Of a DNA stretch of 46,474 nt, positions 5,210 through 26,353 are shown piece by piece. The stretch covers positions 1 to 46,474 of the forward strand of contig JAUWMQ010000006.1 in NCBI GenBank assembly GCA_030613065.1, given 5' to 3'. Position 1 is the first letter of the stretch; every line of letters begins with the position of its first letter. The notes under the pieces were generated by a model. The model searched no databases. It had not been told where the DNA came from and saw only the letters and a list, made by a program, of their open reading frames with translations. The stretch is from Candidatus Aegiribacteria sp. Its GTDB lineage: Bacteria > Fermentibacterota > Fermentibacteria > Fermentibacterales > JCC-6. Made by a program: the position numbers and the translations under genes.

Positions 5210-6037
5210 TTGAGCGAACGGAGTACTTTGGGAAAAAGGATAGTTATTTCGTCTGATTGCAGAAAACTCGGGAAAACTCTTATTACCGAACGTCTCGTAG
5301 CTGAATTTACTGCAACCGGCCTGACTGTTACCTGTGTTAAACTGTCACGCGAGGGGCACGGCCCTGCAGGAATCAGCGACAGTCCGGGATCCAGCGGTAC
5401 CGATACCCACCGTTACAGTGAAGCCGGCGCTTCAAAGGTAATTTTTTTCAGGTATGTAGCAGTCGAGGAGCTTGCGGATGCTGTCGATAAGTTTATGTCT
5501 CCCGGGGATATAGTGATCTTCGAGAGCAACTCAATTCTCAACCTGCTGGATCCTGATTTTCATATTCACATACGATCAGATTCCGGACAGAAGCAGTCTG
5601 CAGAAGGACTCGAACTGAAAGCGGATCTCATATTAGAAGGCCCTTTATCCTCGGAAGATGCTGACAAGATAGCCAGACTGGTGCCGGGATTGATGCGTGT
5701 TGGTGATTATTCTCCAATAAAAATCGGCGGCAAGCACTGGCTGAACCTTCATGGAAAACCTCTTTTTGGCGAGGGAAGGATGGATCTCCTGAAGTCTATC
5801 CGCGAGACCGGTTCCATATTGCAGGCCGCACAGAAAACAGGTATCCAGTACAAAAGAGCCTGGGTACTTTTGCACGATGCGGAACAACGGCTTGGCGCAA
5901 AACTGCTTAACAGTGATAGGGGCGGAGCCGGAGGCGGAGGAACGAGTATTACTCAGCTGGCGGAGACTCTGCTGAACATCTGGGAAAAGTCTGAGGAGGA
6001 TTTCAACAGAATGCTGGACAGGCTGGAGGTAAGATGA
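5210..6037 (+). CDS. MobB-like P-loop domain fused to ModE-type DNA-binding domain
   Basis: Up to 275 aa in two parts. Residues 9-170 resemble MobB-like P-loop proteins: a first strand RIVISSDCRKLGKTLIT carrying a GKT-type nucleotide loop, a VKLSREGHG segment, and Asp/Glu-rich switch regions (GDIVIFESNSILN). Residues 188-275 are a ModE-type winged helix: GEGRMDLLKSIRETGSILQA, the Tyr-Lys-Arg-Ala-Trp signature of LysR/ModE HTHs, and a GGAGGGGTSITQLAE wing. ModE senses molybdate or tungstate through TOBE domains, which are absent here, so the sensing part may be the P-loop domain. The start is TTG. A second TTG at 5228, four bases after GGAG, is equally plausible. The stop overlaps the moeA ATG (ATGA). 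Confidence 0.75.
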   Translation: MSERSTLGKRIVISSDCRKLGKTLITERLVAEFTATGLTVTCVKLSREGHGPAGISDSPGSSGTDTHRYSEAGASKVIFFRYVAVEELADAVDKFMSPGDIVIFESNSILNLLDPDFHIHIRSDSGQKQSAEGLELKADLILEGPLSSEDADKIARLVPGLMRVGDYSPIKIGGKHWLNLHGKPLFGEGRMDLLKSIRETGSILQAAQKTGIQYKRAWVLLHDAEQRLGAKLLNSDRGGAGGGGTSITQLAETLLNIWEKSEEDFNRMLDRLEVR

Positions 6038-7245
6038 TAACTGTTGAGGAAGCACAGAAACTGGTACTTGATAATTCAGGTGAACCTGAGGTGGAAGAAG
6101 TATCCATTGATAGGGCTGCCGGCCACGTTCTGGCTTCCGATGTCCATTCGGATATCGATATGCCGCCCTTCAACCGCTCTGCAATGGATGGATTTGCCAT
6201 TTCGGGAGACGATCTCAGGCACGAACTTCTTGAAGAGATCGTCGCCGGTGATTCAAGTGAAATCAGCATTTATCCTGGTATTGCATGCCCGATAATGACA
6301 GGGGCTCCACTACCGGAAGGAGCGGACAGGATCGTGATCGTCGAGGAATCCGTTATTGAGGATTCCGTTCTTTACCTTGAAAAAGTACCGCCTGAGGGAG
6401 CGAATATCTGCTGGAAAGGTGAAGACATCAAAGAGGGGCAGATTGTGCTGGAACACGGCACAAGACTGACCCAGCAGCACATGGGCATTGCCGCCATGGC
6501 CGGCCGGGGTGTACTCCCGGTTTTCAGAAAGCCGCGTATTGCCGTAGTGACTACCGGCACTGAAATTGTTCCTCCAACATGGATACCATCACCCGGGCAA
6601 GTAAGGAACGCAAATTTGCCGCTGATTACTTCTCAGCTGTCAATGAGCGGTTTCACAGCCCTGGTATCGGTTCATTCCGCCGATGACCCAGGTTCCCTCA
6701 GTGCAACTTTCAGACAGTTACTGAGCTGCAGTGATGTTCTTATAGTTGCTGGAGGGGTTTCAAAGGGCACGAGGGATTTCGTTCCTTCAGTCCTTGAATC
6801 CCTCGGTGTAATAATTCATTTCAGAACTGTTGCACAGAAACCGGGTAAACCTTTGATCTTCGGCAGCAGCGCTGCCGGCAAGCCGGTCTTCGGGCTGCCT
6901 GGTAATCCGGTTTCTGTAATGGTGACAATTGAGGAGTACGTACTTCCGCTTCTGAGAAAAAGATCTGGATTCAAGGGATATCACAGGCGAATGTACCATG
7001 GCGAGATTACTTCTGATTACAGAAAGAAACCTGGCCGAGTGCATTTTCTCAGGGTTATCGCTTACAGAGAAGGCAATTCCTGGAAGCTTCATTACCCCGA
7101 TTCTTCCGGTTCCGGAGATCTTATGAGCACAGTAAATGTAAATGCGCTTGCAATTGTCGGCTCCGATCAACTGAGTATTGAAGCCGGGGAATCCCTGCCT
7201 TTCCATTTTCTCAGTTCCACAGCTGGCGAGCTTGCCTTCTCATGA
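6034..7245 (+). CDS. moeA: molybdopterin molybdenumtransferase MoeA
   Basis: A 403-aa protein of normal MoeA length. The family signature is clear: IDRAAGHVLASDV, then MPPFNRSAMDGFAI near residue 50, and GAPLPEGADRIVIVEE. The central MPT-binding domain has TTGTEIVPP and VRNANLPLI, and VAGGVSKGTRDFVPSVLE is the motif shared with MogA. The C-terminal part holds QKPGKPLIFG and FGLPGNPVSVMVT. MoeA hydrolyses adenylylated molybdopterin and inserts the metal. Next to tupABC and an AOR operon the metal may well be tungsten. The gene overlaps both neighbours by four bases (ATGA), so it is in the middle of a translationally coupled operon. Confidence 0.95.
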   Translation: MITVEEAQKLVLDNSGEPEVEEVSIDRAAGHVLASDVHSDIDMPPFNRSAMDGFAISGDDLRHELLEEIVAGDSSEISIYPGIACPIMTGAPLPEGADRIVIVEESVIEDSVLYLEKVPPEGANICWKGEDIKEGQIVLEHGTRLTQQHMGIAAMAGRGVLPVFRKPRIAVVTTGTEIVPPTWIPSPGQVRNANLPLITSQLSMSGFTALVSVHSADDPGSLSATFRQLLSCSDVLIVAGGVSKGTRDFVPSVLESLGVIIHFRTVAQKPGKPLIFGSSAAGKPVFGLPGNPVSVMVTIEEYVLPLLRKRSGFKGYHRRMYHGEITSDYRKKPGRVHFLRVIAYREGNSWKLHYPDSSGSGDLMSTVNVNALAIVGSDQLSIEAGESLPFHFLSSTAGELAFS

Positions 7246-8186
7246 GGGATTCGAGGGGGCGGGAAATTAATTACCTCAGACTTTCAGTCACAGACAGGTG
7301 CAATATCAGGTGCATTTACTGTATGCCGGAATCTGGTGTTGACCTGGTTTCTCATGATGATGTCCTATCTGTGGATGAGACTATCCGGCTTACCGGGATA
7401 ATCATGAAAGCGGCAGGTGTAAGAAAAGTAAGGGTAACCGGCGGAGAACCTCTGGTAAGAAAAGGTCTTCTGGACATCGTGCGCGGAATCTCAGATCTCC
7501 ATCCCCTGGAGCTTGTGCTTACTACCAACGGGTTGCTGCTGAGCGGTATGGCGGAGCAGATTGCAGAAGCGGGAATAGAGAGGGTGAACATAAGCCTGGA
7601 CAGTTTACGGGATGAGAGGATAAGGGGAATTTCCAGGAGGGATATATCCCTGAAGGATATTAAAGATGCTATTCAATCAGCATTTGATGCAGGTCTTGAT
7701 CCTTTGAAGGTGAATTGCGTTGTCATGAGAAACATTAACGATGATGAGATAGCGGAGTTTATCAGGTGGAGCGGGGAAACAGGAGTTTTTGTTCGTTTCA
7801 TTGAACATATGCCGTCAATTCTTTCCGAAGATACATTCGTTTCAAGGGATGAGATAATTGAAAGAGCTTCTGTTCTGGGTAGAATCGTCAAACTGAGCGA
7901 TGAAGGTACAGCAGGTATCTACTCCGCTCAGGGCACCGGACAGACTTTCGGCATAATCGCGCCGTTTTCCGATCCCATGTGCAACTCCTGCAGTAGAATA
8001 AGGCTATCTGCCCTGGGCACACTGTACTCCTGCCTTGCAGAGGGGGAGGGTGTACCGCTCATGGAACTGCTCCGGAGTGATGCAGGCGATGAAACAATTT
8101 CAGAGATGGTCATTAGATCTGTCATAAATAAACCTGATTCCCATGGCGGGTGTGTCCGTACGAAGATGTGGAGGATTGGCGGTTAG
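7242..8186 (+). CDS. moaA: GTP 3',8-cyclase MoaA
   Basis: A 314-aa radical SAM enzyme catalysing the first step of pyranopterin synthesis, GTP to 3',8-cyclo-7,8-dihydro-GTP. The N-terminal cluster motif is LSVTDRCNIRCIYCMPESG (CxxxCxxC), followed by RVTGGEPLVRKGL for SAM binding. The second, substrate-binding cluster is in DPMCNSCSRIRLSALGTLYSC (CxxC and a third Cys). The protein ends in Gly-Gly after MWRI, the conserved C-terminal tail that enters the active site. Its ATG overlaps the moeA stop and moaC starts two bases after its stop. Confidence 0.95.
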   Translation: MRDSRGREINYLRLSVTDRCNIRCIYCMPESGVDLVSHDDVLSVDETIRLTGIIMKAAGVRKVRVTGGEPLVRKGLLDIVRGISDLHPLELVLTTNGLLLSGMAEQIAEAGIERVNISLDSLRDERIRGISRRDISLKDIKDAIQSAFDAGLDPLKVNCVVMRNINDDEIAEFIRWSGETGVFVRFIEHMPSILSEDTFVSRDEIIERASVLGRIVKLSDEGTAGIYSAQGTGQTFGIIAPFSDPMCNSCSRIRLSALGTLYSCLAEGEGVPLMELLRSDAGDETISEMVIRSVINKPDSHGGCVRTKMWRIGG

Positions 8187-8187
8187 C

Positions 8188-8661
8188 ATGAAGAAAATGT
8201 CCCATATTGATGAAAAGGGAAATGCGAGGATGGTAGATGTTTCGTCAAAGGAACCCACAGAGAGAACAGCTGTAGCTTCAGGGTGTATCAAACTCGGCAG
8301 AAACGCGTCCGCTGCAATTGAGGATGATTCCGTTCCCAAAGGTGACGTATTCTCCACCGCGAGAATTGGTGCCATCACTGCAGTGAAGAGAACCTGGGAG
8401 ACAATTCCACTCTGCCATCCACTCAGAATAGGCGGGGTGGAGATAGATTTTAACAGGGATGGAAATACCGTTGAAGCCACCTGTACTGTAAAGGGTGTGG
8501 AATCTACCGGATTCGAGATGGAAGCCCTCATAGGTGTTACAACCGCTCTTCTTATCATTTACGATATGACAAAAGCCCTGGACAGGGGCATGGAAATCGG
8601 AGAAGTAAGACTGATTCGGAAAAGTGGAGGAAAATCGGGGGAATACAGATGGCAAGGGTAA
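8188..8661 (+). CDS. moaC: cyclic pyranopterin monophosphate synthase MoaC
   Basis: A 157-aa protein, normal for MoaC. It converts the MoaA product into cyclic pyranopterin monophosphate. Signature regions are MVDVSSKEPTERTAVASG, KGDVFSTARIGAITAVKRTW, IPLCHPL, and GFEMEALIGVTTALLIIYDM followed by KALDRGMEIGEV. The frame is open upstream to 8143, but that part overlaps the moaA tail and is not conserved. The ATG at 8188, right after the moaA stop TAG, gives the expected N-terminus (SHIDEKGNARMVDVS). It overlaps the following gene by 13 bases. Confidence 0.94.
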   Translation: MKKMSHIDEKGNARMVDVSSKEPTERTAVASGCIKLGRNASAAIEDDSVPKGDVFSTARIGAITAVKRTWETIPLCHPLRIGGVEIDFNRDGNTVEATCTVKGVESTGFEMEALIGVTTALLIIYDMTKALDRGMEIGEVRLIRKSGGKSGEYRWQG

Positions 8662-9599
8662 GCGCGGTATGCCTTTCCGAGAAAAGACAGACACGGAAAG
8701 TAATGCAGAATCTGGTTAATCTGATCGAAAACTTCGGCATTGAGGGAGATGCACACGCGGGAGAAGGCATGCGGCAGATATCGATACTTTCAGAGATGTC
8801 CCTGGCGAAAATGGAGGCTGAAGGGATAACAACCTCACCCGGATGCTGCGGTGAGAATATTGATATCCACGCTGCTATCGAACTACATACACTGCTTCCG
8901 GGAGTTCAGTTGAAACTTGGCGACTGCGCGGTAGTAAGGATCACGGAAATCGGGAAGGATAATTCCGACGGTCATGCGGATAACGTAATCCGGAACAATA
9001 TCTTTCCACGTGAAGGAATCTTCGCGGAAGTACTCACAGGCGGCACAGTTAAGCCGGACGACTCGGTTGAAGTGCTCAGAAGCAACGGTTTTACCGCGGG
9101 TGTATTGACCGTAAGTGATTCAGCTTCCAAGGGGGTCTATCAAGACACGAGCGGTCCCGCATTGATAGAATTACTTCGCAGTAACGGTTATCTTCCGGCA
9201 AGGTATGCCGTGGTCCCCGATGAAGTTACTGAGATATCGACTAAGCTCTCGAACTGGTGCGAGGATGGCTTTCTGGATGTACTGTTCACGACGGGCGGAA
9301 CAGGATTTTCAGTAAGGGATGTTACTCCCGAAGCAACCCGGATGGTCTGTGACCGGGAAGTTCCAGGCATTCCGGAGATGATAAGGCAGAAGTCAGCTTT
9401 AATCGTCGAATCTGCCTGGCTTTCCAGAGCCCGGGCAGGAATCAGAAAACGGACACTGATAATAAACGTTCCCGGAAGCAGGAAGGCTGCCCTTGAATGC
9501 GCGGGTTTTGCCTTCCCGATTCTCGGTCATGCCCTGGAGATTCTCAGGGGAGACATTGAGCACTGCGGCCATGGGGACGTACCACATTTCTTCAACTAA
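8649..9599 (+). CDS. MOSC domain fused to MogA/MoaB-type molybdopterin adenylyltransferase
   Basis: A 316-aa two-domain protein. Residues 1-150 form a MOSC domain (GIEGDAHAGEGMRQISILS, then a Gly-Cys-Cys-Gly-Glu-Asn segment and LKLGDCAVVRITEIG). MOSC domains bind sulfurated pterin cofactors or transfer sulfur. Residues 153-316 are a MogA/MoaB-like domain (AGVLTVSDSASKGVYQDTSG, FTTGGTGFSVRDVTPEATR, NVPGSRKAALE), which adenylylates molybdopterin before metal insertion by MoeA. The same fusion exists in other anaerobes. It closes the cofactor operon; its ATG lies inside moaC. No moaE-like gene is present in the window. Confidence 0.88.
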   Translation: MARVSAVCLSEKRQTRKVMQNLVNLIENFGIEGDAHAGEGMRQISILSEMSLAKMEAEGITTSPGCCGENIDIHAAIELHTLLPGVQLKLGDCAVVRITEIGKDNSDGHADNVIRNNIFPREGIFAEVLTGGTVKPDDSVEVLRSNGFTAGVLTVSDSASKGVYQDTSGPALIELLRSNGYLPARYAVVPDEVTEISTKLSNWCEDGFLDVLFTTGGTGFSVRDVTPEATRMVCDREVPGIPEMIRQKSALIVESAWLSRARAGIRKRTLIINVPGSRKAALECAGFAFPILGHALEILRGDIEHCGHGDVPHFFN

Positions 9600-13071: not shown

Positions 13072-13269
13072 TTATCCTCCGGACATCAGATGGATTATGT
13101 CTACAGTTGCCTTATCGGGAATGACTGTAGAATCGTATTTCTTTCTGGGTACAAGTTTTCCGTTAATTCTTACGATAAGAAGCGGAAAGAGGTAATTCTT
13201 CTCCTTTATGACATCCCGTGCGGTCTTGCCCGGGGACCATTCTAACCGCTCTCCGTTAACAATAATCAT
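13072..13269 (-). CDS. ThiS/MoaD-family ubiquitin-like sulfur carrier
   Basis: A 65-aa beta-grasp protein: MIIVNGERLEWSPGKTARDV, then IKEKNYLFPLLIVRINGKLV, ending in Met-Ser-Gly-Gly. The C-terminal Gly-Gly is the site that E1-like enzymes adenylylate and that carries a thiocarboxylate. By sequence it is closer to ThiS (VPRKKY..T.I.D...V..IH.MSGG) than to canonical MoaD. No thiamine genes are nearby; it lies 40 bp after the AOR fusion gene, and the ThiF-like E1 sits at the other end of the operon. It probably delivers sulfur to the tungsten cofactor, as suggested for MoaD-like proteins in other AOR operons. That role is inferred. Confidence 0.85.
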   Translation of the reverse strand: MIIVNGERLEWSPGKTARDVIKEKNYLFPLLIVRINGKLVPRKKYDSTVIPDKATVDIIHLMSGG

Positions 13270-13309: not shown

Positions 13310-15298
13310 TTAACCTCCGTGCTTTCTAACCAGTTCGATTACATCGGGGAAATCCACCCCGAGTTCCATAAGCTTGGCGACTGTTGGAACACCATCGTTC
13401 GTCCAGCCTCTGCGCTTGTAGACCGCATCCAGCAGGTGTTCGTACTGCGATTCCCGGTACTTACGCATAGCTGCCACTTTCTCTATCGTGGACATTCCTG
13501 TCGGATCTATCCCCACATCTTCTCGAAGCTGCGTGTCGTATCTGTCCTGACGTGATTCGTATTCCGTTGCAGTGACGGGACCTGCAGACCTGTACGGTAT
13601 TGCGTCGTGTTCCCGTTTTCCGAAGCCCATCTTCAGGTTGAATACGCGCTGGAAGTTGTAGACCTTCTCGGACATCCCAATCAGGCTGTCCATAGTCTGG
13701 GGTTTTCCAGTTACTCCTTCAAAGAACTCACAGTACCCCTGAACGTGTCCGGGAACCTTTGCCGGTTCATCTGTTTCGGCATTGTCCGCCGGTTCAACAT
13801 CGTTCCATGGAAGTTTGCAGAGCCCGCACAGGCCGAACCACGTTCTCCACATGGGGAAGTAATGAAGGGCTTCAGCTTTATCTTCAAAGGTTGGTATCTG
13901 CTTGTTCACCATATCCATGAAAATGAGCCAGGCTTCATCATGCTGTGCGCCTTTGAGAGCAATGCCGTAACCACCCTGCTGGGCGAGGGATTCCTTGGTT
14001 ACATATTCGGAGTACTCCATTCCCTTGGCTTCCATACCGATATCAAACACAAAGCCTGGATCGGCGCCAAAATTCTCTACGAAGTACTTCTTCATGTAGC
14101 GGATACCTTTGCCTGCGATGAGTCCGAAACCCTCTCCCCGGCCTATCTGATGCAGAAGTTCAAGGGCCGCGTCCTTAGCGCCGAACGATATCTCCAGCCC
14201 TCCAGTTTTTTCCATATCAAGAATACCGGCTTCGTAGCATTCCATGACAAAGGCTAATCCTGTTGAGAAGGAGATCGTATCAAGTCCGTAGGTGTCGCAG
14301 TAGAAGTTGTACTCGATTACGAAACGAGGGTCGAATATTCCCATATTGGATGAACCGCCCAGGGTTTCGTACTCCGGGCCGTCAACAAGGACTTTCTCTC
14401 CCTTGTAGGGGCCGGTTTTCAATTCAAAGTTCTCGATAGCTTTGGCGCAGGCCATGGTGCACCCGAGCCAGCATCCATCCGGTTTTCCCTTTGTGAAGAA
14501 TGTTCTGAGGACATCGGAGCTGATCTTCGAAGAATCTTCATGCTTTCCGAAACGGTAATTCATGACGGGGAGGAGATCGTAGGCATCCATAATCTCAACA
14601 AGGTGGGCGGTTCCCACTCCGCGCATGTCACACTGTTCCTTGTCGAATCTGATCATCTCCTCGGTTATTCTCATGCCCGCGCGGCGAACCATATCTGCGT
14701 CGTATGGCTGGTTCGGGTCGTCAATCATGGTTATTGCCCCGGTGGGACATATTTCAGCGCAGGCGCCACATCCAATACAGTGGGGCTGCTCGGAATCGTA
14801 TGGCATCTGAACGGACCTGTCCGCACCCCTGTTCGTGAAGTTAATGATGTTCTCCCAGATGCCCTGTTCGCAGATTCTCATACAGAGGCCGCATAGAATG
14901 CAGGCATTCGGATTAAGATCGACAGCGGGATGCTGATACCGGGGGGGGGTAATCCCTGCATGCTTCGCAAGATCCTTGATAAGCTGCACATTGGGCCACC
15001 TGGAAAGCATCATCTCCAGGATTATCTTCCTGTTCCTGAGCACCGTTTCCGAAGAAGTATTCACCTTGATGGGTCTTCGAACAGGATAGTTGCACGAAGT
15101 AACCAGTTTAGTCTTTCTTCCGTCATTCACTTCCACAATGCAGAGCCTGCACGCAGCATACGGCTCCACCAGTTCACTGCTGCAGAGAGCAGGAATGTAG
15201 ATGCTGACCTCTCTGGCCGCTTCAAGAATAGTCGAATCCTTCTCGATCGAGACTGATTTTCCATCAATTTCGATTGTTATCATTTCTCTGTCAGCCAT
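13310..15298 (-). CDS. NuoG-like ferredoxin module fused to aldehyde oxidoreductase domains 2-3
   Basis: A 662-aa fusion. Residues 1-80 are a [2Fe-2S] ferredoxin-like domain (Cys 39, 50, 53, 69). Residues 130-190 hold two [4Fe-4S] motifs, CILCGLCMRIC and CIGCGACAEIC. The usual NuoG HxxxCxxC cluster between them is absent. From about residue 225 the protein is AOR domains 2 and 3: GTAHLVEIMDAYDLLPVMNY, a cluster motif at Cys 276/280/284, GPEYETLGG, YGLDTIS, AKGMEYSEY, a His in GAQHDE, and a last Cys at 491 or 494. AOR domain 1 is missing and is encoded at 17626-18435. The ATG overlaps the nuoF-like stop (TAATG), seven bases after GGAGG. It should bind the tungstopterin together with the domain 1 subunit and pass electrons to the NuoF-like subunit. 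Confidence 0.9.
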   Translation of the reverse strand: MADREMITIEIDGKSVSIEKDSTILEAAREVSIYIPALCSSELVEPYAACRLCIVEVNDGRKTKLVTSCNYPVRRPIKVNTSSETVLRNRKIILEMMLSRWPNVQLIKDLAKHAGITPPRYQHPAVDLNPNACILCGLCMRICEQGIWENIINFTNRGADRSVQMPYDSEQPHCIGCGACAEICPTGAITMIDDPNQPYDADMVRRAGMRITEEMIRFDKEQCDMRGVGTAHLVEIMDAYDLLPVMNYRFGKHEDSSKISSDVLRTFFTKGKPDGCWLGCTMACAKAIENFELKTGPYKGEKVLVDGPEYETLGGSSNMGIFDPRFVIEYNFYCDTYGLDTISFSTGLAFVMECYEAGILDMEKTGGLEISFGAKDAALELLHQIGRGEGFGLIAGKGIRYMKKYFVENFGADPGFVFDIGMEAKGMEYSEYVTKESLAQQGGYGIALKGAQHDEAWLIFMDMVNKQIPTFEDKAEALHYFPMWRTWFGLCGLCKLPWNDVEPADNAETDEPAKVPGHVQGYCEFFEGVTGKPQTMDSLIGMSEKVYNFQRVFNLKMGFGKREHDAIPYRSAGPVTATEYESRQDRYDTQLREDVGIDPTGMSTIEKVAAMRKYRESQYEHLLDAVYKRRGWTNDGVPTVAKLMELGVDFPDVIELVRKHGG

Positions 15299-17166
15299 TA
15301 GAGTACCTCCACAGCGTTGAAGTTGCATACTTCTCTGCAGACTCCGCAGTGTATGCACTTCTCCTGGTCTATTAGATGTGGTTCCTTCAGGCTGCCCTCG
15401 ATAGCGTCTACGGGACAGTTTCTGGCGCAGAGAGTGCAGCCCGTACAGTTATCAGCAGCTATGCGGTACTCAATAAGCGGTTTGCATTTGAGAGCCCTGC
15501 ACTTTCCCTCACGGATATGTTCTTCGTATTCATCCCGGAAGTACCTTATGGTGCTGAGAACTGGATTGGCAGCGGTCTGACCTAATGCGCACAGACTGGA
15601 TTCGCACATATTCAGTCCATATTCCTCGAGGAGTTCGATGTCGCCCGGGCGGCCATCTCCATTGATTATTCTTTCCATAATGCTCCCGAGGGCAACAAGC
15701 CCTTCTCTGCAGGGTGTGCATTTGCCGCAGGATTCGTCCTTCAGGAAATCAACAAAGTAATTTGCCACCTGGATCATGCAGGTTAAGTCATCCATGACCA
15801 CCATACCGCCAGACCCCATCATTGAGCCTGCATCGGTGAGGGTGTCGAAATCCACCGGAAGGTCAAGTTTGTCAGCAGGGAGAACTCCCCCGGAAGGACC
15901 GCCGGTCTGAACAGCCTTGAATTCCCTGCCTCCGGGAATCCCTCCACCGATATCGTAGATGATTTCCCGAAGAGTTATTCCCATAGGTACTTCAACAAGA
16001 CCGATGTTATTCACGTCTCCAACAAGAGAGAAAACCTTGGTTCCCGATGATCCGTTCCATGGATTCTCAGAGACATCACCTGTTCCGATGGATGCGAACC
16101 ACTCAGCTCCCTTTTCCATTATGAGAGGGATATTGGCCCAGGTTTCAACGTTGTTCAGGACAGTCGGCTTATCCTTGTAGCCCCTTTCAACAGAACGGAC
16201 GTACTTTGCTCTTGGTTCTCCAGGATTACCTGCCAAGGAAGCCATCAGAGCCGAAGATTCACCACAAACAACGGCCCCGGCGCCCCTGTGCACCACGATA
16301 TCGAAATCGAATCCGGTATTGAAGATATTCTTTCCAAGAAGGCCGTGCTCACGTGCCTGATCTATCGCAATGATCAGACGTTTCATGGCAAGGGGGTATT
16401 CCTTACGGATATAGATGTATCCTTTACTGGCTCCCACTGCATAGGCGCCCGCAAGCATTCCCTCTATTACGCTGTGGGGATCCGCCTCGATTATGCTTCT
16501 GTCCATGAAAGCGCCGGGGTCTCCCTCATCGGCATTACAGATGACAGATGGAGGATCTCCCGTTTTCTTAACAGCTTCAACACACGATTGCCATTTCACT
16601 CCGGCAGGGAAACCACCGCCTCCGCGCCCCCTGATGCCGGAACGGATAATTTCAGTGACCACTTCATCAGGTTTCATGGTTGTGAGTATCCTGTGAAGAG
16701 CCTGGTATCCACCAAGCCTGATGTAATCTTCGATCTTCTCCGGATTGATCATTCCCTTGTGCCGGAGAGCAAGAAGTTTCTGCTTTCCGAAGAACGGAAT
16801 ATTCTCCATCTTCGGGACAGCTGCTCCGTTATGATGATAAAGAAGCCTTTCCACAGGTTCTCCGCCTATCAGATGCTTCTCTATTATTTCCGTGATATCC
16901 GGGCAGGTAAGCTCCTCATAGAATATACCCTCAGGCTGAACCACCATAATGGGCCCCTGGGCGCAGAATCCGTTGCATCCTGTTGGCACTACGAGGTACT
17001 TCTCCGAGAGGTTCCGGTTCTCAAGTTCCTTAATCAGGACAGCGACGAGATCGAAGGATTTGTTGGCCACGCACGCTGTTCCTGTGCATAGCATCAGCGC
17101 CGCATTGTAGCTTTCATACTCATTGAGAGCCTTCTGCTGTATCTGTCTCAACTGGTCAATAGTCAT
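15298..17166 (-). CDS. NuoF/HydB-like NAD- and FMN-binding subunit
   Basis: A 622-aa flavoprotein like HydB, HndC and the long NuoF proteins of bifurcating enzymes. An N-terminal thioredoxin-like [2Fe-2S] domain has Cys in LCTGTACVANK and VVPTGCNGFCAQG. The FMN/NADH core has IRGRGGGGFPAGVKW and NADEGDPGAFMDRSIIE. The [4Fe-4S] motif is SCGKCTPCREG plus ESSLCALGQ. The C-terminus adds two ferredoxin clusters (CTGCTLCARNCP and CIHCGVCREVC). It should exchange electrons between NAD(H), FMN and ferredoxin-type clusters; bifurcation is possible but not shown by sequence. It overlaps both neighbours (ATGA upstream, TAATG downstream). Confidence 0.93.
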   Translation of the reverse strand: MTIDQLRQIQQKALNEYESYNAALMLCTGTACVANKSFDLVAVLIKELENRNLSEKYLVVPTGCNGFCAQGPIMVVQPEGIFYEELTCPDITEIIEKHLIGGEPVERLLYHHNGAAVPKMENIPFFGKQKLLALRHKGMINPEKIEDYIRLGGYQALHRILTTMKPDEVVTEIIRSGIRGRGGGGFPAGVKWQSCVEAVKKTGDPPSVICNADEGDPGAFMDRSIIEADPHSVIEGMLAGAYAVGASKGYIYIRKEYPLAMKRLIIAIDQAREHGLLGKNIFNTGFDFDIVVHRGAGAVVCGESSALMASLAGNPGEPRAKYVRSVERGYKDKPTVLNNVETWANIPLIMEKGAEWFASIGTGDVSENPWNGSSGTKVFSLVGDVNNIGLVEVPMGITLREIIYDIGGGIPGGREFKAVQTGGPSGGVLPADKLDLPVDFDTLTDAGSMMGSGGMVVMDDLTCMIQVANYFVDFLKDESCGKCTPCREGLVALGSIMERIINGDGRPGDIELLEEYGLNMCESSLCALGQTAANPVLSTIRYFRDEYEEHIREGKCRALKCKPLIEYRIAADNCTGCTLCARNCPVDAIEGSLKEPHLIDQEKCIHCGVCREVCNFNAVEVL

Positions 17167-17633
17167 TTCCGGCCCTCCTTACTGAATCTCCTGATGATAT
17201 CGGGCACTTTGTTGGATTTTACTCCACCTATCACTTCATCACCAATGGTAACAACAGGAGCAAGCCCGCACGCACCTACGCACCTGACTTCAGTAATTGT
17301 AAATTTGCCATCAGGTGTCGTTTCCCCACTTGAAATACCGAGTGTTCTTTCAAAGGCTGCAAGAACGTCCGGTGCCCCCTTCACGTAACATGCTGTGCCC
17401 ATGCAGACCTGTATTTCCGTTTCACCTCTTTGCTCAAGGCTGAAAGCTTTGTAGAAGGTAGCAATATGAAACAGTTTACCCCTTGGCTTTTCGGTTCTGT
17501 CAGCGATTCTTTCAAGAGCTTCCTTCGGGATATACCGGAATTCATCCTGAACATCCTGCATCATTTCGATGACGAAGTCAGGGTTGGTGTTCCATTTCTC
17601 AATAATCGCGTCCACTTTATTGAAATCAATCAT
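17163..17633 (-). CDS. NuoE-like [2Fe-2S] thioredoxin-fold subunit
   Basis: A 156-aa NuoE/HydC-like protein. The N-terminal helical bundle (MQDVQDEFRYIPKEALERIA) leads into the thioredoxin-like domain with the four-Cys [2Fe-2S] site: CMGTAC and, 37 residues on, CVGAC (EVRCVGACGLAPVV). It partners the NuoF-like subunit in NADH-linked complexes, carrying electrons from or to FMN. The ATG sits inside the last codons of the AOR domain 1 gene (8-base overlap), with GGGGAGG six bases upstream. Its stop overlaps the nuoF-like ATG. Confidence 0.94.
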   Translation of the reverse strand: MIDFNKVDAIIEKWNTNPDFVIEMMQDVQDEFRYIPKEALERIADRTEKPRGKLFHIATFYKAFSLEQRGETEIQVCMGTACYVKGAPDVLAAFERTLGISSGETTPDGKFTITEVRCVGACGLAPVVTIGDEVIGGVKSNKVPDIIRRFSKEGRK

Positions 17634-18435
17634 TAGAAACCTCCCCAGAAGGAGAATCCTGCCTGGAAATGGTCCATGTTGGTCTTGTGTGTGGAGCCTT
17701 CACCGCAAGGGCTTTCAGGCCCTTGTTCCTGAAGACCGTGCCTGTTCCACCCCTCCCGGCCTGTTTCAGCCTCATGGTTCTTCGTCTCCAGTCCCACCAG
17801 GAGAAATTCAGGCATCCGATCCATGCATGATCAGCTCCCATGCCGGCCGAAACCGTTGAAATATGCCGCTTGTCATCATCGTTATCGGAGTACATTTCAG
17901 CAAGTTCTTCTGCAGCCAGGTGTGAGTTCACTGAAAGAAGCGGGGATTCAATCACCTGGACGTTCCCGTTCATCCCATCGATGAAGACGATCAGCTCTTT
18001 CTCAGATTTTCCGGTGATTACGAGGCAGTCGAAACCTGAAAACTTAAGCAGAGGACCGAAATGTCCGCCGACGTTAGAATCCACTACGGATCCCGTTGTG
18101 GGGGATATAGTTGTGACAATTGATTTGCCGGAACCCGCGAAAGAAGTTGTTCCTCCGAGGGGTCCCGCGGCTATACAAATCGGGTTCTCAGGACTGTCCC
18201 ATTTCGTTTCAGAGGTTACTTCCTGCCAGGTCATCCAGAGGTCGAACCCTTTTCCTCCGGTGAAAACCTCTTTCATTTTCTCCGATACCGGTATGATCCT
18301 GAAGGAAGGTTCTGAGATATCAACTCTGAGTATTTCCCCCGTATACCCTCTTATTGAAGGTTTGGGGCTGTACTCGAAAGTACCTAGAACCTTCTGTTTA
18401 CGAAGAATCTCACCGGCTTTGTGCGTGTTTGCCAT
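17626..18435 (-). CDS. stand-alone aldehyde:ferredoxin oxidoreductase domain 1 (AOR N-terminal domain)
   Basis: A 269-aa protein matching only the first domain of AOR enzymes: IRGYTGEILRVDISE, VFTGGKGFDLWM, DSPENPICIAAGPLGGT, SPTTGSVVDSNVGGHFGPLL, FSGFDCLVITGKSE, and GRGGTGTVFRNKGLKALAVK. In single-chain AORs this domain forms the base on which the bis-pterin tungsten cofactor lies. Here it stops at the domain boundary with a short tail, and domains 2-3 are found on the NuoG-like fusion three genes downstream. The frame is open to 18543, but the ATG at 18435 has GGGAG six bases upstream and removes a spurious hydrophobic lead. It is the first gene of the operon. Confidence 0.9.
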   Translation of the reverse strand: MANTHKAGEILRKQKVLGTFEYSPKPSIRGYTGEILRVDISEPSFRIIPVSEKMKEVFTGGKGFDLWMTWQEVTSETKWDSPENPICIAAGPLGGTTSFAGSGKSIVTTISPTTGSVVDSNVGGHFGPLLKFSGFDCLVITGKSEKELIVFIDGMNGNVQVIESPLLSVNSHLAAEELAEMYSDNDDDKRHISTVSAGMGADHAWIGCLNFSWWDWRRRTMRLKQAGRGGTGTVFRNKGLKALAVKAPHTRPTWTISRQDSPSGEVSND

Positions 18436-18597: not shown

Positions 18598-19212
18598 ATG
18601 ATTGATGAAGAAACCAGCGCATTCAGAGACAACCCCCCCGAACTCACTGCTCTTCTCAACAGTTCTTCAGTGGGTATCGCCGGAGTCGGCGGAGTAGGAT
18701 CGAATGTAGCCGCAGCACTGATCCGTGCAGGGACAGGCAGGCTTGTAATTGTCGATTACGATTCTGTCGAACTGCCCAATCTCAACAGGCAGTTCTATTT
18801 CAGAGATCAAATTGGATATCCAAAGGTTGAAGCGCTTAGGTACAATCTGGAACTCATAAACCCCGATGCTCTTATTGAGATGCACAACAGATTTATCGAT
18901 TCTGAAAACGCCTGCTCAATCTTTGCTGATTGTGATGTGCTTGTGGAGGCGGTGGATAGCGAGGAAAGCAAGATCATGCTTCTTGAATCATGGCTGCAGG
19001 TATTGCCACGCAAACCGGTGTTCTCCTGCTCGGGTATCGCCGGTTTTGGAAGGACTGATTCAATCAGAGTTGACAGGCGCCAGAACCTTACGATTGTGGG
19101 AGATCAGGAAAGTGATCTGTCCCTGGGCACACTTTCATCAAGGGTTGCCATTGTTGCCGCCATGATGGCCAACGAGATCATCGAGTACCTCTGCTCCTCG
19201 AAATCGCAGTGA
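18598..19212 (+). CDS. ThiF/MoeB-like E1 adenylyltransferase
   Basis: A 204-aa minimal E1 enzyme. The ATP-binding loop is GVGGVGSNVAAALIRAGTG, then IVDYDSVELPNLNRQFYF with the Asp and the Asn-Arg-Gln that contact ATP, and IGYPKVEAL. It lacks the CxxC zinc knuckles and rhodanese part of long MoeB proteins, as in the short clostridial-type ThiF proteins. It probably adenylylates the Gly-Gly end of the ThiS/MoaD-like carrier encoded at the far end of the divergent AOR operon. There is no visible ribosome site; AT-rich TATATAT runs directly into the ATG, so leaderless translation or another start is possible. The last 51 bases recur at 20798-20848. Confidence 0.85.
   Translation: MIDEETSAFRDNPPELTALLNSSSVGIAGVGGVGSNVAAALIRAGTGRLVIVDYDSVELPNLNRQFYFRDQIGYPKVEALRYNLELINPDALIEMHNRFIDSENACSIFADCDVLVEAVDSEESKIMLLESWLQVLPRKPVFSCSGIAGFGRTDSIRVDRRQNLTIVGDQESDLSLGTLSSRVAIVAAMMANEIIEYLCSSKSQ
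19149..19199 (+). repeat. 51-bp direct repeat, copy 1 (3' end of the ThiF-like gene)
   Basis: This stretch codes for IVAAMMANEIIEYLCSS near the C-terminus of the ThiF-like protein. It matches 20798-20848 at 50 of 51 positions; the one difference (19185 G, 20834 A) is a silent GAG/GAA change. Confidence 0.95.
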
Positions 19213-23708: not shown

Positions 23709-24611
23709 GTGTTAAAAAATATCTTAAGCAGAATTCTGATTGTAGTTGTTCTTTTTGCGGCCTGTGGCGGACAGTCCTCCCGGGAGGATGCCGAAAAAGA
23801 GTTAGTAGAGGATGTTCATACTGACTCAATTCCTCCTCTACCCGGCGCGATCCGTTTGAGGGTAGCTACAACCACCAGCCTGTACGATACCGGTCTGTGG
23901 GGTTACCTTGAGCCTATGTTTGAAGAGGAATATGGCGTGGAACTCGATGTACTCTACGCGGGAACCGGCAAGGCTCTTGAATGGGGGCGAAGAGGGGATG
24001 TTGATGTTATAACTGTTCATTCCAGAGCCAGAGAAGAGCAGTTCGTTGAGGAGGGATACGGTCTGGAGCGTGTTCCGTTCGCTTACAACTACTTCCTTGT
24101 TGTTGGGTCACCTGATGATCCTGCGCATTTGGAAGGAATGGCTCCGGAAGATGCTTTCAGAACACTGATGCAGAATGGTGAGGGTCTTTTCGTTTCCAGA
24201 GGAGACGACTCGGGCACACACGGCAAAGAAAAAGCTATCTGGACAGCTGCCGGATATGATTATGAGGACGTGCGAACGTCGGGTGACTGGTATATAGAGG
24301 GCGGAAGCGGAATGGGACCCACACTGGTAATGGCAGACGAAATGGGTGCTTATACGCTGACGGATATGGGAACCTTCATTGCTTACCAGGGTGACCTGGA
24401 GCTGGAGCCGCTAGTGGATAAGGGTGATATGCTGCTGAATGTTTATTCAGTAATCGAGATCACATCGGCGAGGAATCCTGAAATGGCAGCAAATCTCAGG
24501 GAATTCCTTACCTCAGAGACCGTGCAGGAGCTAATCGGTAACTACGGTGTTGGTGAGTACGGCATACAGCTGTTCACACCATGTGCAGGAGAGGATATGC
24601 AGGATATTTAG
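23709..24611 (+). CDS. tupA: tungstate-binding lipoprotein TupA
   Basis: A 300-aa periplasmic binding protein. It has a hydrophobic lead ending in Phe-Ala-Ala-Cys at residue 19 (lipobox-like), then the TupA hallmark VATTTSLYDTGLWGYLEPMF, where the Thr-Thr-Thr-Ser run contributes to oxyanion binding. Further TupA-typical parts are YAGTGKALEWGRRGDVDV, FVSRGDDSGTHGKE and YTLTDMGTF. It differs from ModA and PstS and is the class known for high tungstate selectivity. The start is GTG preceded by a run of AGGAGG repeats (closest core four bases away). tupB begins directly after its stop. Confidence 0.9.
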   Translation: MLKNILSRILIVVVLFAACGGQSSREDAEKELVEDVHTDSIPPLPGAIRLRVATTTSLYDTGLWGYLEPMFEEEYGVELDVLYAGTGKALEWGRRGDVDVITVHSRAREEQFVEEGYGLERVPFAYNYFLVVGSPDDPAHLEGMAPEDAFRTLMQNGEGLFVSRGDDSGTHGKEKAIWTAAGYDYEDVRTSGDWYIEGGSGMGPTLVMADEMGAYTLTDMGTFIAYQGDLELEPLVDKGDMLLNVYSVIEITSARNPEMAANLREFLTSETVQELIGNYGVGEYGIQLFTPCAGEDMQDI

Positions 24612-25307
24612 ATGACCCAGTTACTGGAAGCTTTCCAAATTGCGCTCAATATGATTATCTCCGGGGATCCGGTGGTGTTCTCAATTGCGTTCCGGACACT
24701 GATGATATCTCTTACCGCAACACTGGTTTCGGCTTTTATCTTTATTCCTGTCGCTTGTCTGATACATTTCAATCAATTCAGAGGGAAAAAATTCCTTGTC
24801 AGTATTATTCAGACACTTTTCAGCGTACCTACGGTATTAGTTGGCATGCTGGTATTTCTGTTCATCTCCAGAGCAGGACCTCTTGGAAACCTCGGTATGT
24901 TATTCACTCCCGGCGCAATTGTACTTGGCGAAGTTCTTTTGATAGCTCCCATTATTACCGGGCTGACGATATCCGCTCTTTCCGGTATGGGAAGAGAGAT
25001 CCCCGATACCGCCCTGTCTCTCGGAGCAGGACAGCTGCAGATGGTCCTCAAGGTGCTGTCTGAATCAAGATATATGGTATTGACAGCTGTTCTCATGGGA
25101 TTTGGCAGGGCAGTGTCCGAGATAGGTGTGGCAATCATAGTTGGTGGCAATATCTCCGGGTACACGCGGACTCTGACAACGGCAATTGCGCTTGGTGTCG
25201 GACAGGGAGAGATTGCTGCTTCGATTGCTCTGGGTATCATCCTTCTTTCTCTTGCCATGATCGTCAGCCTTACCGTCAGTACACTTCAGCATAGCGTGAA
25301 GCGATGA
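24612..25307 (+). CDS. tupB: tungstate ABC transporter permease TupB
   Basis: A 231-aa inner-membrane permease with five or six predicted helices. It carries the ABC-importer EAA-like loop (DTALSLGAGQLQMVLKVLSE, then a permease-typical GFGRAVSEIGVAIIVGG) that contacts the ATPase. It follows tupA with no spacing and ends in an ATGA overlap with tupC, so the three subunits are translationally coupled. Confidence 0.92.
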   Translation: MTQLLEAFQIALNMIISGDPVVFSIAFRTLMISLTATLVSAFIFIPVACLIHFNQFRGKKFLVSIIQTLFSVPTVLVGMLVFLFISRAGPLGNLGMLFTPGAIVLGEVLLIAPIITGLTISALSGMGREIPDTALSLGAGQLQMVLKVLSESRYMVLTAVLMGFGRAVSEIGVAIIVGGNISGYTRTLTTAIALGVGQGEIAASIALGIILLSLAMIVSLTVSTLQHSVKR

Positions 25308-26353
25308 TACTTGAACTTGAAAACATCTCGCAGGCTAAGAACGGACATCAGATACTGAGTGATGTGAATCTATCTGTTTCCAGAGGTGCTTTCTTTGTTC
25401 TCATGGGTCCAACCGGCTGTGGGAAAACTTCTCTCCTCAGAATAGCGGGTCTTCTTGATAAACCTTCTTCCGGGCGGGTGATGTGCTTTGACAGATTGAT
25501 TCCCCTTCGCGGGAAAGAGAGGCTTCAGGCACGCCGCAGGATGGTCACTCTCTTACAGAGACCGGTTCTTTTTCGAGGAAGCGTTTTCTCAAATGTGGAG
25601 TGGGGATTGCGGATAAGAGGAATCCCGCTGAACGAGATTAACACGAAGGTTTTGCGTGTGCTGGAACTGGTTGATCTGGAAGGGTACGGAGATCGAGATT
25701 CCGGTACTCTTTCCGGTGGTGAGCTGCAGCGGGTCGCGCTCGCAAGAGCACTTGTAATTGAACCGTCCGTCCTGATACTTGATGAACCGACCACATCACT
25801 CGATCCTAATCTGAGATTTGACCTGCTCCGCAGACTGAGAGATCTGCATTCAAAAACGGGTATCACTTTCATCATGGCTACTCATGATTTTACTGATGCT
25901 CTGTCTATCGGAACAACTGGTGCTGTCATGAGAAATGGCAGGATAGAGCAGACGGGAACAATTGATGAGATCTTCTACAGCCCCAAAACTCCCTTCATGG
26001 CATCGTTTGTTGGAATGAGGAATGTCTTCCCGGCAGAATTCAGAGAAGATGGAGCTGTCGCTGGAGGACATCTTGTCAGGCATACATCGGACAAGAGAGG
26101 ACACGGTTTTCTGGCGATACCACCCGAGGCAATAGTTGTTTCCAGAAAAACTACAGTTACGAGTGAACGAAATCATTTCATTGGAACGATCGAATCTGTT
26201 GAACGAACAGGCTCGATTTTCAGTATCTCTGTGAGTTGCGGTAATCTGATAATGATTTCATCTATAACAAGAAGTGCTTTAACCGAACTGGATCTGACAG
26301 AAGGTCAAGAAGTATGTATATCCTTCAAGGCAAGTGCCGTTCATGTTTTCTGA
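25304..26353 (+). CDS. tupC: tungstate ABC transporter ATP-binding protein TupC
   Basis: A 349-aa ATPase. The Walker A is GPTGCGKTSLLR, the Q-loop lies in TLLQRPVLF, the ABC signature is LSGGELQRVALARAL, the Walker B is LILDEPTTSLDP, and the H-loop is MATHDFTD. After residue 235 a C-terminal extension of about 110 residues contains a TOBE-like beta domain (AIPPEAIVVSRK, then FIGTIESVERTGSIFSISV). In molybdate and tungstate transporters such domains can bind the anion and inhibit uptake. It overlaps tupB by four bases. Confidence 0.92.
   Translation: MILELENISQAKNGHQILSDVNLSVSRGAFFVLMGPTGCGKTSLLRIAGLLDKPSSGRVMCFDRLIPLRGKERLQARRRMVTLLQRPVLFRGSVFSNVEWGLRIRGIPLNEINTKVLRVLELVDLEGYGDRDSGTLSGGELQRVALARALVIEPSVLILDEPTTSLDPNLRFDLLRRLRDLHSKTGITFIMATHDFTDALSIGTTGAVMRNGRIEQTGTIDEIFYSPKTPFMASFVGMRNVFPAEFREDGAVAGGHLVRHTSDKRGHGFLAIPPEAIVVSRKTTVTSERNHFIGTIESVERTGSIFSISVSCGNLIMISSITRSALTELDLTEGQEVCISFKASAVHVF

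Follow-up and report, generated by a model that had tools for sequence, protein, structure and literature searches.

Contig JAUWMQ010000006.1 of Candidatus Aegiribacteria sp. (Fermentibacterota; assembly GCA_030613065.1), analysed here over 46,474 nucleotides and referred to as the window, carries a four-gene operon of the aldehyde oxidoreductase (AOR)/WOR family on its minus strand from 18435 to 13310. In the direction of transcription it encodes AOR domain 1 as a separate chain (AOR-N), a NuoE-like subunit (BfuC), a NuoF-like subunit (BfuB) and a NuoG-like module (BfuA) fused to AOR domains 2-3 (NuoG::AOR-C; Table 1). A first-pass annotation made from the letters of the window had proposed this gene order, and the coordinates and Pfam matches confirm it. 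All four frames are open. The junctions, for which overlaps of 1-8 bases had been given, measure 8 bases for AOR-N/NuoE (17626-17633), 4 bases for NuoE/NuoF (17163-17166) and 1 base for NuoF/NuoG::AOR-C (15298); that such short overlaps would yield equal amounts of the subunits was not supported, since the gene spacing varies among relatives.

Table 1. Features of the window, with positions counted from its first base (the limits of the interruption were calculated from residue numbers)
Feature	Positions	Strand	Evidence or details
aorN, separate AOR/WOR domain 1 chain, 269 aa	17626..18435	-	PF02730 at residues 33-246, E 4.6e-45; core ending near residue 247; beyond it a new tail, with Trp254
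BfuC/NuoE-like [2Fe-2S] subunit, 156 aa	17163..17633	-	PF01257, E 2.5e-46; Cys 77, 82, 118, 122
BfuB/NuoF-like flavin mononucleotide (FMN) subunit, 622 aa	15298..17166	-	thioredoxin-like 2Fe-2S, PF01512, PF10589, Fer4
NuoG::AOR-C, 662 aa: BfuA/NuoG-like part (about 1-193) and AOR/WOR domains 2-3 (about 194-662)	13310..15298	-	Fer2_4 at 5-83; Fer4 at about 129-191; PF01314 at 220-647, E 2.3e-89
Interruption (approximate), from AOR residue 247 of the first chain to about residue 194 of the last	14720..17694	-	comparison with the single-chain junction
ThiS-like protein (WorX type), 65 aa, ending in GG	13072..13269	-	TIGR01683, E 2.5e-12, above cut-off
ThiF-like adenylyltransferase, divergent, upstream of the operon	18598..19212	+	NF006395, 214 bits, above cut-off
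Pterin cofactor genes: MobB-like plus ModE-like protein, MoeA, MoaA, MoaC, MOSC-MogA type	5210..9599	+	
TupA-, TupB- and TupC-like importer genes	23709..26353	+	all below curated cut-offs

The AFOR N-terminal domain PF02730 and the C-terminal domain PF01314 are thus both present, on two chains. AOR-N aligns with residues 3-210 of the Pyrococcus furiosus AOR (PfAOR; 1aor), and the alignment of NuoG::AOR-C with PfAOR starts at about residue 241. Single-chain relatives read through the break with KALVVK, about 8 residues and NNPAD before domain 2, whereas in the split enzymes KALxVK stands near the end of the first chain, followed by a tail, and PNxPxD directly follows the NuoG module of the last chain. 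Compared with these relatives, the AOR is complete across both chains save for a linker about 8 residues long where domain 1 meets domain 2, the place to which the first-pass annotation had also assigned the break. Among the 45 near-invariant domain-1 positions of the split set, 44 have the same residue in the single-chain set. A second complete partner for domains 2-3 had been named as a possible objection; no lone AOR domain 1 was found elsewhere in the genome (92.7% complete), and the sole other domain 1 found there is part of a complete single-chain AOR. These comparisons support the reading that one AOR is spread over two chains around the cassette and broken at the domain 1/2 boundary.

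Spread of the divided operon

In named genomes, a scan gave 247 relatives, and the best 80 were kept; unsplit relatives are therefore at least as numerous as counted here. The NuoG::AOR fusion was present in 41 of these best 80 loci, one of them with a broken reading frame (L085), and the remaining 39 were single-chain AORs without a fused NuoG. Six of the 41 fusion loci end upstream at a contig end; in all 35 readable ones domain 1 lies on another chain. The survey of the gene order that had been recommended with the annotation gave the same four genes in the same order at 28 of the 35 readable loci (L058 and L060 being cut at one end) and six close variants, namely three with an AOR-N::NuoE fusion (L082-L084) and three in which NuoE and NuoF are missing between AOR-N and NuoG::AOR-C (L064, L072, L079). 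The last locus, L085, has the same order with frameshifts. It belongs to Candidatus Sabulitectum silens (L027 and L085 share one contig), in which operon genes are broken by frameshifts, either through sequencing error or through decay.

By title or taxonomy the split loci belong to Fermentibacterota, Myxococcota or 'Deltaproteobacteria', Bdellovibrionota, Acidobacteria, Eisenbacteria and Coatesbacteria, with Cloacimonetes for one cut-off locus; the genomes are mostly metagenome bins, and individual assignments may be wrong. The arrangement is thus far more general than one window. Within the phylum of the window, 35 of 42 genomes had a match at E 1e-40, with NuoG-only and single-chain matches included in this count. 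Searched at E 1e-40, two genomes of the same genus (G001 and G016; 97% and 92% complete) gave no hit to the fusion protein, and the split operon seems not to be universal within the genus.

Conserved residues and cofactor ligands

The equivalents of PfAOR Thr243, Glu313, Tyr427 and His448 in NuoG::AOR-C (T230, E311, Y432 and H453) were retained in 34/34 split and 44/44 single-chain rows of the alignment. The same holds for C276, C280, C284 and C494, which we take, from the AOR alignment, to be the ligands of the AOR [4Fe-4S] cluster. The first three form a CX3CX3C motif (C276-C284, window positions 14447-14473) in all 78 rows of the subfamily, where the aligned PfAOR has CX2CX3C. A Trp in the tail after domain 1 (W254 in the window) occurs in 34/34 split rows, and the same stretch has it in 0/44 single-chain rows.

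The ratios of nonsynonymous to synonymous substitution rates (dN/dS) of the four window genes were 0.075-0.091 against L080 and 0.046-0.123 against L047 (0.085 and 0.123, respectively, for aorN), and against L051 synonymous sites were saturated for three of the four genes. Such values indicate that all four genes are under purifying selection. The AlphaFold2 model of NuoG::AOR-C (pLDDT 83.4, pTM 0.80) found WOR structures and 9mqx_A as its best Foldseek matches. Low confidence at residues 429-465 of this model, a segment with Y432 and H453, could have reflected the absence of domain 1. This reading was rejected, since the same low-confidence loop (487-528) appeared in the control, a single-chain Lutispora relative that has domain 1.

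The modules between the two AOR parts could be named more exactly than NuoF and NuoG. The NuoF, which has a 2Fe-2S domain at its N-terminus and a two-cluster domain at its C-terminus, is of the long HydB/WorB type and not a plain complex I NuoF; in phmmer searches of the PDB it matched HydB (7q4v_B) with 738 bits and 9mqx_B of the bifurcating tungsten enzyme with 724 bits. The NuoG module is of the short BfuA/WorC type with Cys for one 2Fe-2S and two 4Fe-4S clusters, and its best solved relative is 9mqx chain A. According to the definition given by Schut et al. (PMC9304861), a bifurcating BfuB has clusters B1-B5 and a His in an odd B2 cluster, and B3 and B4 are described there as missing from non-bifurcating homologues. 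The ligands of B1, B3 and B4 were all kept in 34/34 split NuoF, as were four of the five B2 ligands (C463, H550, C556 and C561). The NuoF of the window also has the FMN domain and the B5 ligands C27, C32, C64 and C68. The four Cys of the NuoE cluster C1 were found in 37/37 aligned rows and the twelve Cys of the NuoG clusters A1 and A2 in 64/64, with a few rows of each set coming from non-split operons. These ligands support the earlier suggestion of an enzyme linked to nicotinamide adenine dinucleotide (NAD) and perhaps bifurcating, here of the Bfu type that is also linked to ferredoxin.

Six split operons from the genus of the window (L045, L050, L081, L142, L144, L147) have a NuoF which is just 63-71% like that of the window and has lost two B5 Cys, whereas their AOR-N (where present) and AOR-C are 89-92% and 88-92% like those of the window. 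This NuoF could be either a fast-changed or a replaced subunit in an otherwise conserved operon.

The closest unsplit enzymes are single-chain sister AORs, mostly of 710-775 aa, from Bipolaricaulota, Bacillota (Lutispora), Chloroflexota, Aminicenantes, Cloacimonadota and Fermentibacterota family f3. They are 62-70% identical to the window enzyme over domains 2-3, share the catalytic residues and the CX3CX3C motif and often adjoin a ThiS gene, but they are uninterrupted and lack a fused NuoG. They also differ in the presence of a WorS-like polyferredoxin gene. Under one rule for both groups (80-300 aa, at least three 4Fe-4S motifs, within 1.5 kb, loci with both flanks), such a gene was found near 15 of 28 single-chain loci and near 0 of 24 split loci. 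A search beside the operon, with the rest of the genome not searched for WorS, gave no polyferredoxin open reading frame in the window or at any of these 24 split loci. Because of this difference, it is most likely that the fused BfuA module does the work of WorS.

Origin of the arrangement and competing accounts

Before the trees were counted, the duplicates L033 and L034, the loci L004-L022 (same genomes), L086, L102 and L114 were dropped, and so were loci with less than 75% of domain 1 or less than 90% of AOR-C. In the tree of the joined AOR halves, the 34 split rows, including the window, formed one clade with an SH-aLRT support of 100, and in the tree of domain 1 only the support of the split clade was 99. 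The NuoF of the split operons likewise formed one clade (support 100) against 18 other long NuoF. The main subgroups of the AOR and NuoF trees agree when judged by eye, and therefore the operon seems to have travelled as a unit. The two-gene forms (L064, L072 and L079) fell at three places within the split clade, with supports of 81, 86 and 98, and look like separate losses of nuoEF. Their genomes hold other long NuoF; five of the 19 matches were placed in the tree, all outside the split clade, and two of these five adjoin genes that by eye resemble pyruvate-oxidoreductase subunits.

The split state was taken as derived because the other AORs seen are single-chain. Forcing the Fermentibacterota split rows together with family f3 and the unsplit f1 rows cost 114.8 log units (approximately unbiased test, p-AU 9.7e-22). 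The same test speaks against an insertion at this very thiF-AOR-thiS locus, as suggested by the setting shared with the unsplit family f3. The trees thus support a split that arose once and not from the phylum's own unsplit aor.

Based on these results, we consider it likely that the product of the operon is a tungsten oxidoreductase of the AOR/WOR family made of two chains, without WorS and plugged into a Bfu-type bifurcating core, which arose once and most simply by insertion of a cassette. Aldehyde oxidation would take place at a single tungstopterin, around which the 269-aa domain 1 would assemble with the AOR part of the 662-aa chain. From the ligands, the expected electron path leads from W to the AOR [4Fe-4S] cluster, then over the clusters of the fused BfuA-like module to BfuB with its FMN and BfuC with its [2Fe-2S] cluster, and ends in NADH and reduced ferredoxin; the BfuA module would stand in for WorS, which in Class II-IV WORs is a separate polyferredoxin. 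In this way the interrupted arrangement probably lets aldehyde oxidation feed NAD and ferredoxin directly. As to its origin, a bfuC-bfuB-bfuA cassette would have entered an aor/worL gene in the domain 1/2 loop, with an in-frame fusion of BfuA to the half lying downstream; the interrupted operon would then have spread between phyla by transfer. Insertion of a cassette into an aor gene, as the first-pass annotation had it, may therefore stand as the simplest account, provided that the recipient was not the unsplit aor of this phylum. A stricter form of the same idea, in which bfuCBA landed in a tungsten-enzyme gene and gave in one step a working two-chain bifurcating enzyme whose halves stayed separate, which gained a Trp docking tail, displaced WorS and was passed among about six phyla, has in our opinion roughly even chances.

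Several points count against this interpretation. When AOR-C alone was analysed, two changes were needed in 78 rows and the split clade had a support of just 82 (in the 55 retained rows that were used for this value and for the topology test). The outgroups are very distant (branch 3.16), and the nesting of split enzymes among single-chain ones is not settled by the tree. An adjoining WorS-like gene is also missing at 13 of the 28 unsplit loci. The three members without NuoE and NuoF imply that the AOR part may work without those subunits. At the fifth B2 position the window has Ile501, and the 34 split NuoF have T in 21, I in 8, C in 3, M in 1 and A in 1; for B5, the first two Cys are missing in 6/34 (all Aegiribacteria) and the third in 1/34. 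Moreover, for WOR1 itself a review states that only the passing of electrons to ferredoxin and NAD was shown, without an endergonic step (PMC12096430).

Some of these points agree with other explanations. The same enzyme could have originated otherwise than by one insertion: the aor may have been broken first, with a nuoG-like gene fused downstream and nuoE and nuoF moved in between, or a two-gene form may have come first and nuoEF later. The existence of AOR-N and NuoG::AOR-C as two-gene forms agrees with such a course, and so does the fact that no intact aor with a fused NuoG was found among the best 80 loci of the 247. However, the two-gene forms occupy three separate positions within the four-gene clade, as would be expected of separate losses, the NuoF of the four-gene operons group in a single clade whose main groups match those of the AOR tree, and the gene order is exactly what an insertion would leave. 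A stepwise origin is for these reasons a possible but clearly less probable course than the insertion. Somewhat less probable still is a split AOR that reduces NAD only, with a long NuoF which is non-bifurcating here. The Ile in place of Thr or Cys at B2, the six relatives without two B5 Cys and the doubt about WOR1 would fit it; on the other hand, the B3 and B4 ligands and the hallmark His are complete in all 34 split NuoF, and these two clusters are those reported as absent from non-bifurcating homologues (PMC9304861).

It is very improbable that the 662-aa chain functions by itself, with the 269-aa protein being a chaperone for the cofactor or a remnant: the tail after domain 1 is new, which would suit this role, but the near-invariant domain-1 positions match the single-chain residues with one exception, aorN stands upstream in the same operon at all 35 readable loci, it keeps the split grouping of its partner in the tree, and its dN/dS is low. 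Misassembly, a frameshift or a pseudogene may be dismissed, the frameshifted Sabulitectum silens genes notwithstanding, as misassembly or chance is excluded for the window because the four-gene order recurs in separate assemblies titled as several phyla, and the four frames of the window are open.

Comparison with known systems and neighbouring genes

Class IV WORs couple WorLS to WorABC, with the gene orders SLCBA and CBASL (PMC13328260). The enzymes of this class from Acetomicrobium mobile and Eubacterium limosum (Wor-Bfu, WorLSABC; PDB 9mqx) are described as having an AOR-family tungsten subunit and homologues of BfuA, BfuB and BfuC, as found here, and a ThiS-like WorX that is variably present (PMC13328260). 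In their descriptions WorL is one chain and WorS carries the electrons to WorABC; in the window WorL is cut around BfuC-BfuB-BfuA, BfuA is fused to the C-terminal half of WorL and no WorS lies beside the operon. In Type 1 Bfu enzymes (FeFe-HydABC, Nfn-Bfu, Fdh-Bfu and F420-Bfu) the BfuA module carries the catalytic domain as a fusion, and the account of the Type 1 domains does not name AOR among them, Wor-Bfu being assigned to Type 2 (PMC9304861). The operon of the window resembles Type 1 in having a catalytic domain on BfuA and differs in that this domain is two thirds of an AOR, which would be completed in trans by a second chain. The benzoyl-CoA reductase BamBC-DEFGHI, as outlined in PMC13328260, also has an AOR-family tungsten subunit that feeds a Bfu-like module; BamB is, however, one chain which AOR-C matches weakly (E 1.4e-5), and the window operon has no HdrA-like subunit.

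No report of a split AOR was found in the open-licence literature, as covered by titles and the beginnings of abstracts with subscription papers outside this coverage; the aldehyde gene shown in the text of PMC10116835 concerns Bacteroidales. A published census of 4,064 sequences took, by its stated criterion, only proteins with both AOR domains (PMC13328260), and no protein of the window operon has both. With the two domains required on one chain, split enzymes should therefore have escaped that census, as far as the criterion, and not the dataset itself, tells. The operon would add a WOR architecture to those recorded there, and through it both the function of WorS and the least wiring that bifurcation needs become open to testing. 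It further suggests that gene interruption can divide a pterin enzyme, whose fold surrounds a buried cofactor, between two of its domains and connect it to a new electron-transfer module; such readable traces of the way in which modular bifurcating enzymes are put together are rare.

Downstream of an unsplit AOR gene of the same subfamily, two Bacillota (L116 and L123) have ThiS, then a NuoE::NuoF fusion and a NuoG-like protein about 1305 aa long; in L116, the locus tested for this, that protein has FlpD and Pyr_redox domains. In both, a Bfu-like cassette adjoins an intact aor.

With regard to the metal, the window contains importer-like and pterin cofactor genes. The importer proteins matched NF041772 (E 1.7e-48), NF041773 (E 7.9e-47) and the WtpC model NF040840 (E 6.4e-82), with a further match to the tungstate-binding protein 3lr1 of the PDB (E 1.3e-48). 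The WtpA tungstate family had no match in the genome, the importer being TupA-like instead. These genes suggest tungsten but are no proof of the metal. The first of the cofactor genes (5210-6037) encodes a 275-aa protein in which a MobB-like part is joined to a ModE-like DNA-binding part, and which perhaps regulates the cofactor genes.

ThiF and ThiS genes also flank the unsplit AOR of another lineage in Fermentibacterota family f3 (L028-L032). The ThiS of this family is 54-62% like that of the window, and the ThiS of split operons outside Fermentibacterota 34-50%. A replacement of the aor between fixed thiF and thiS neighbours is possible.

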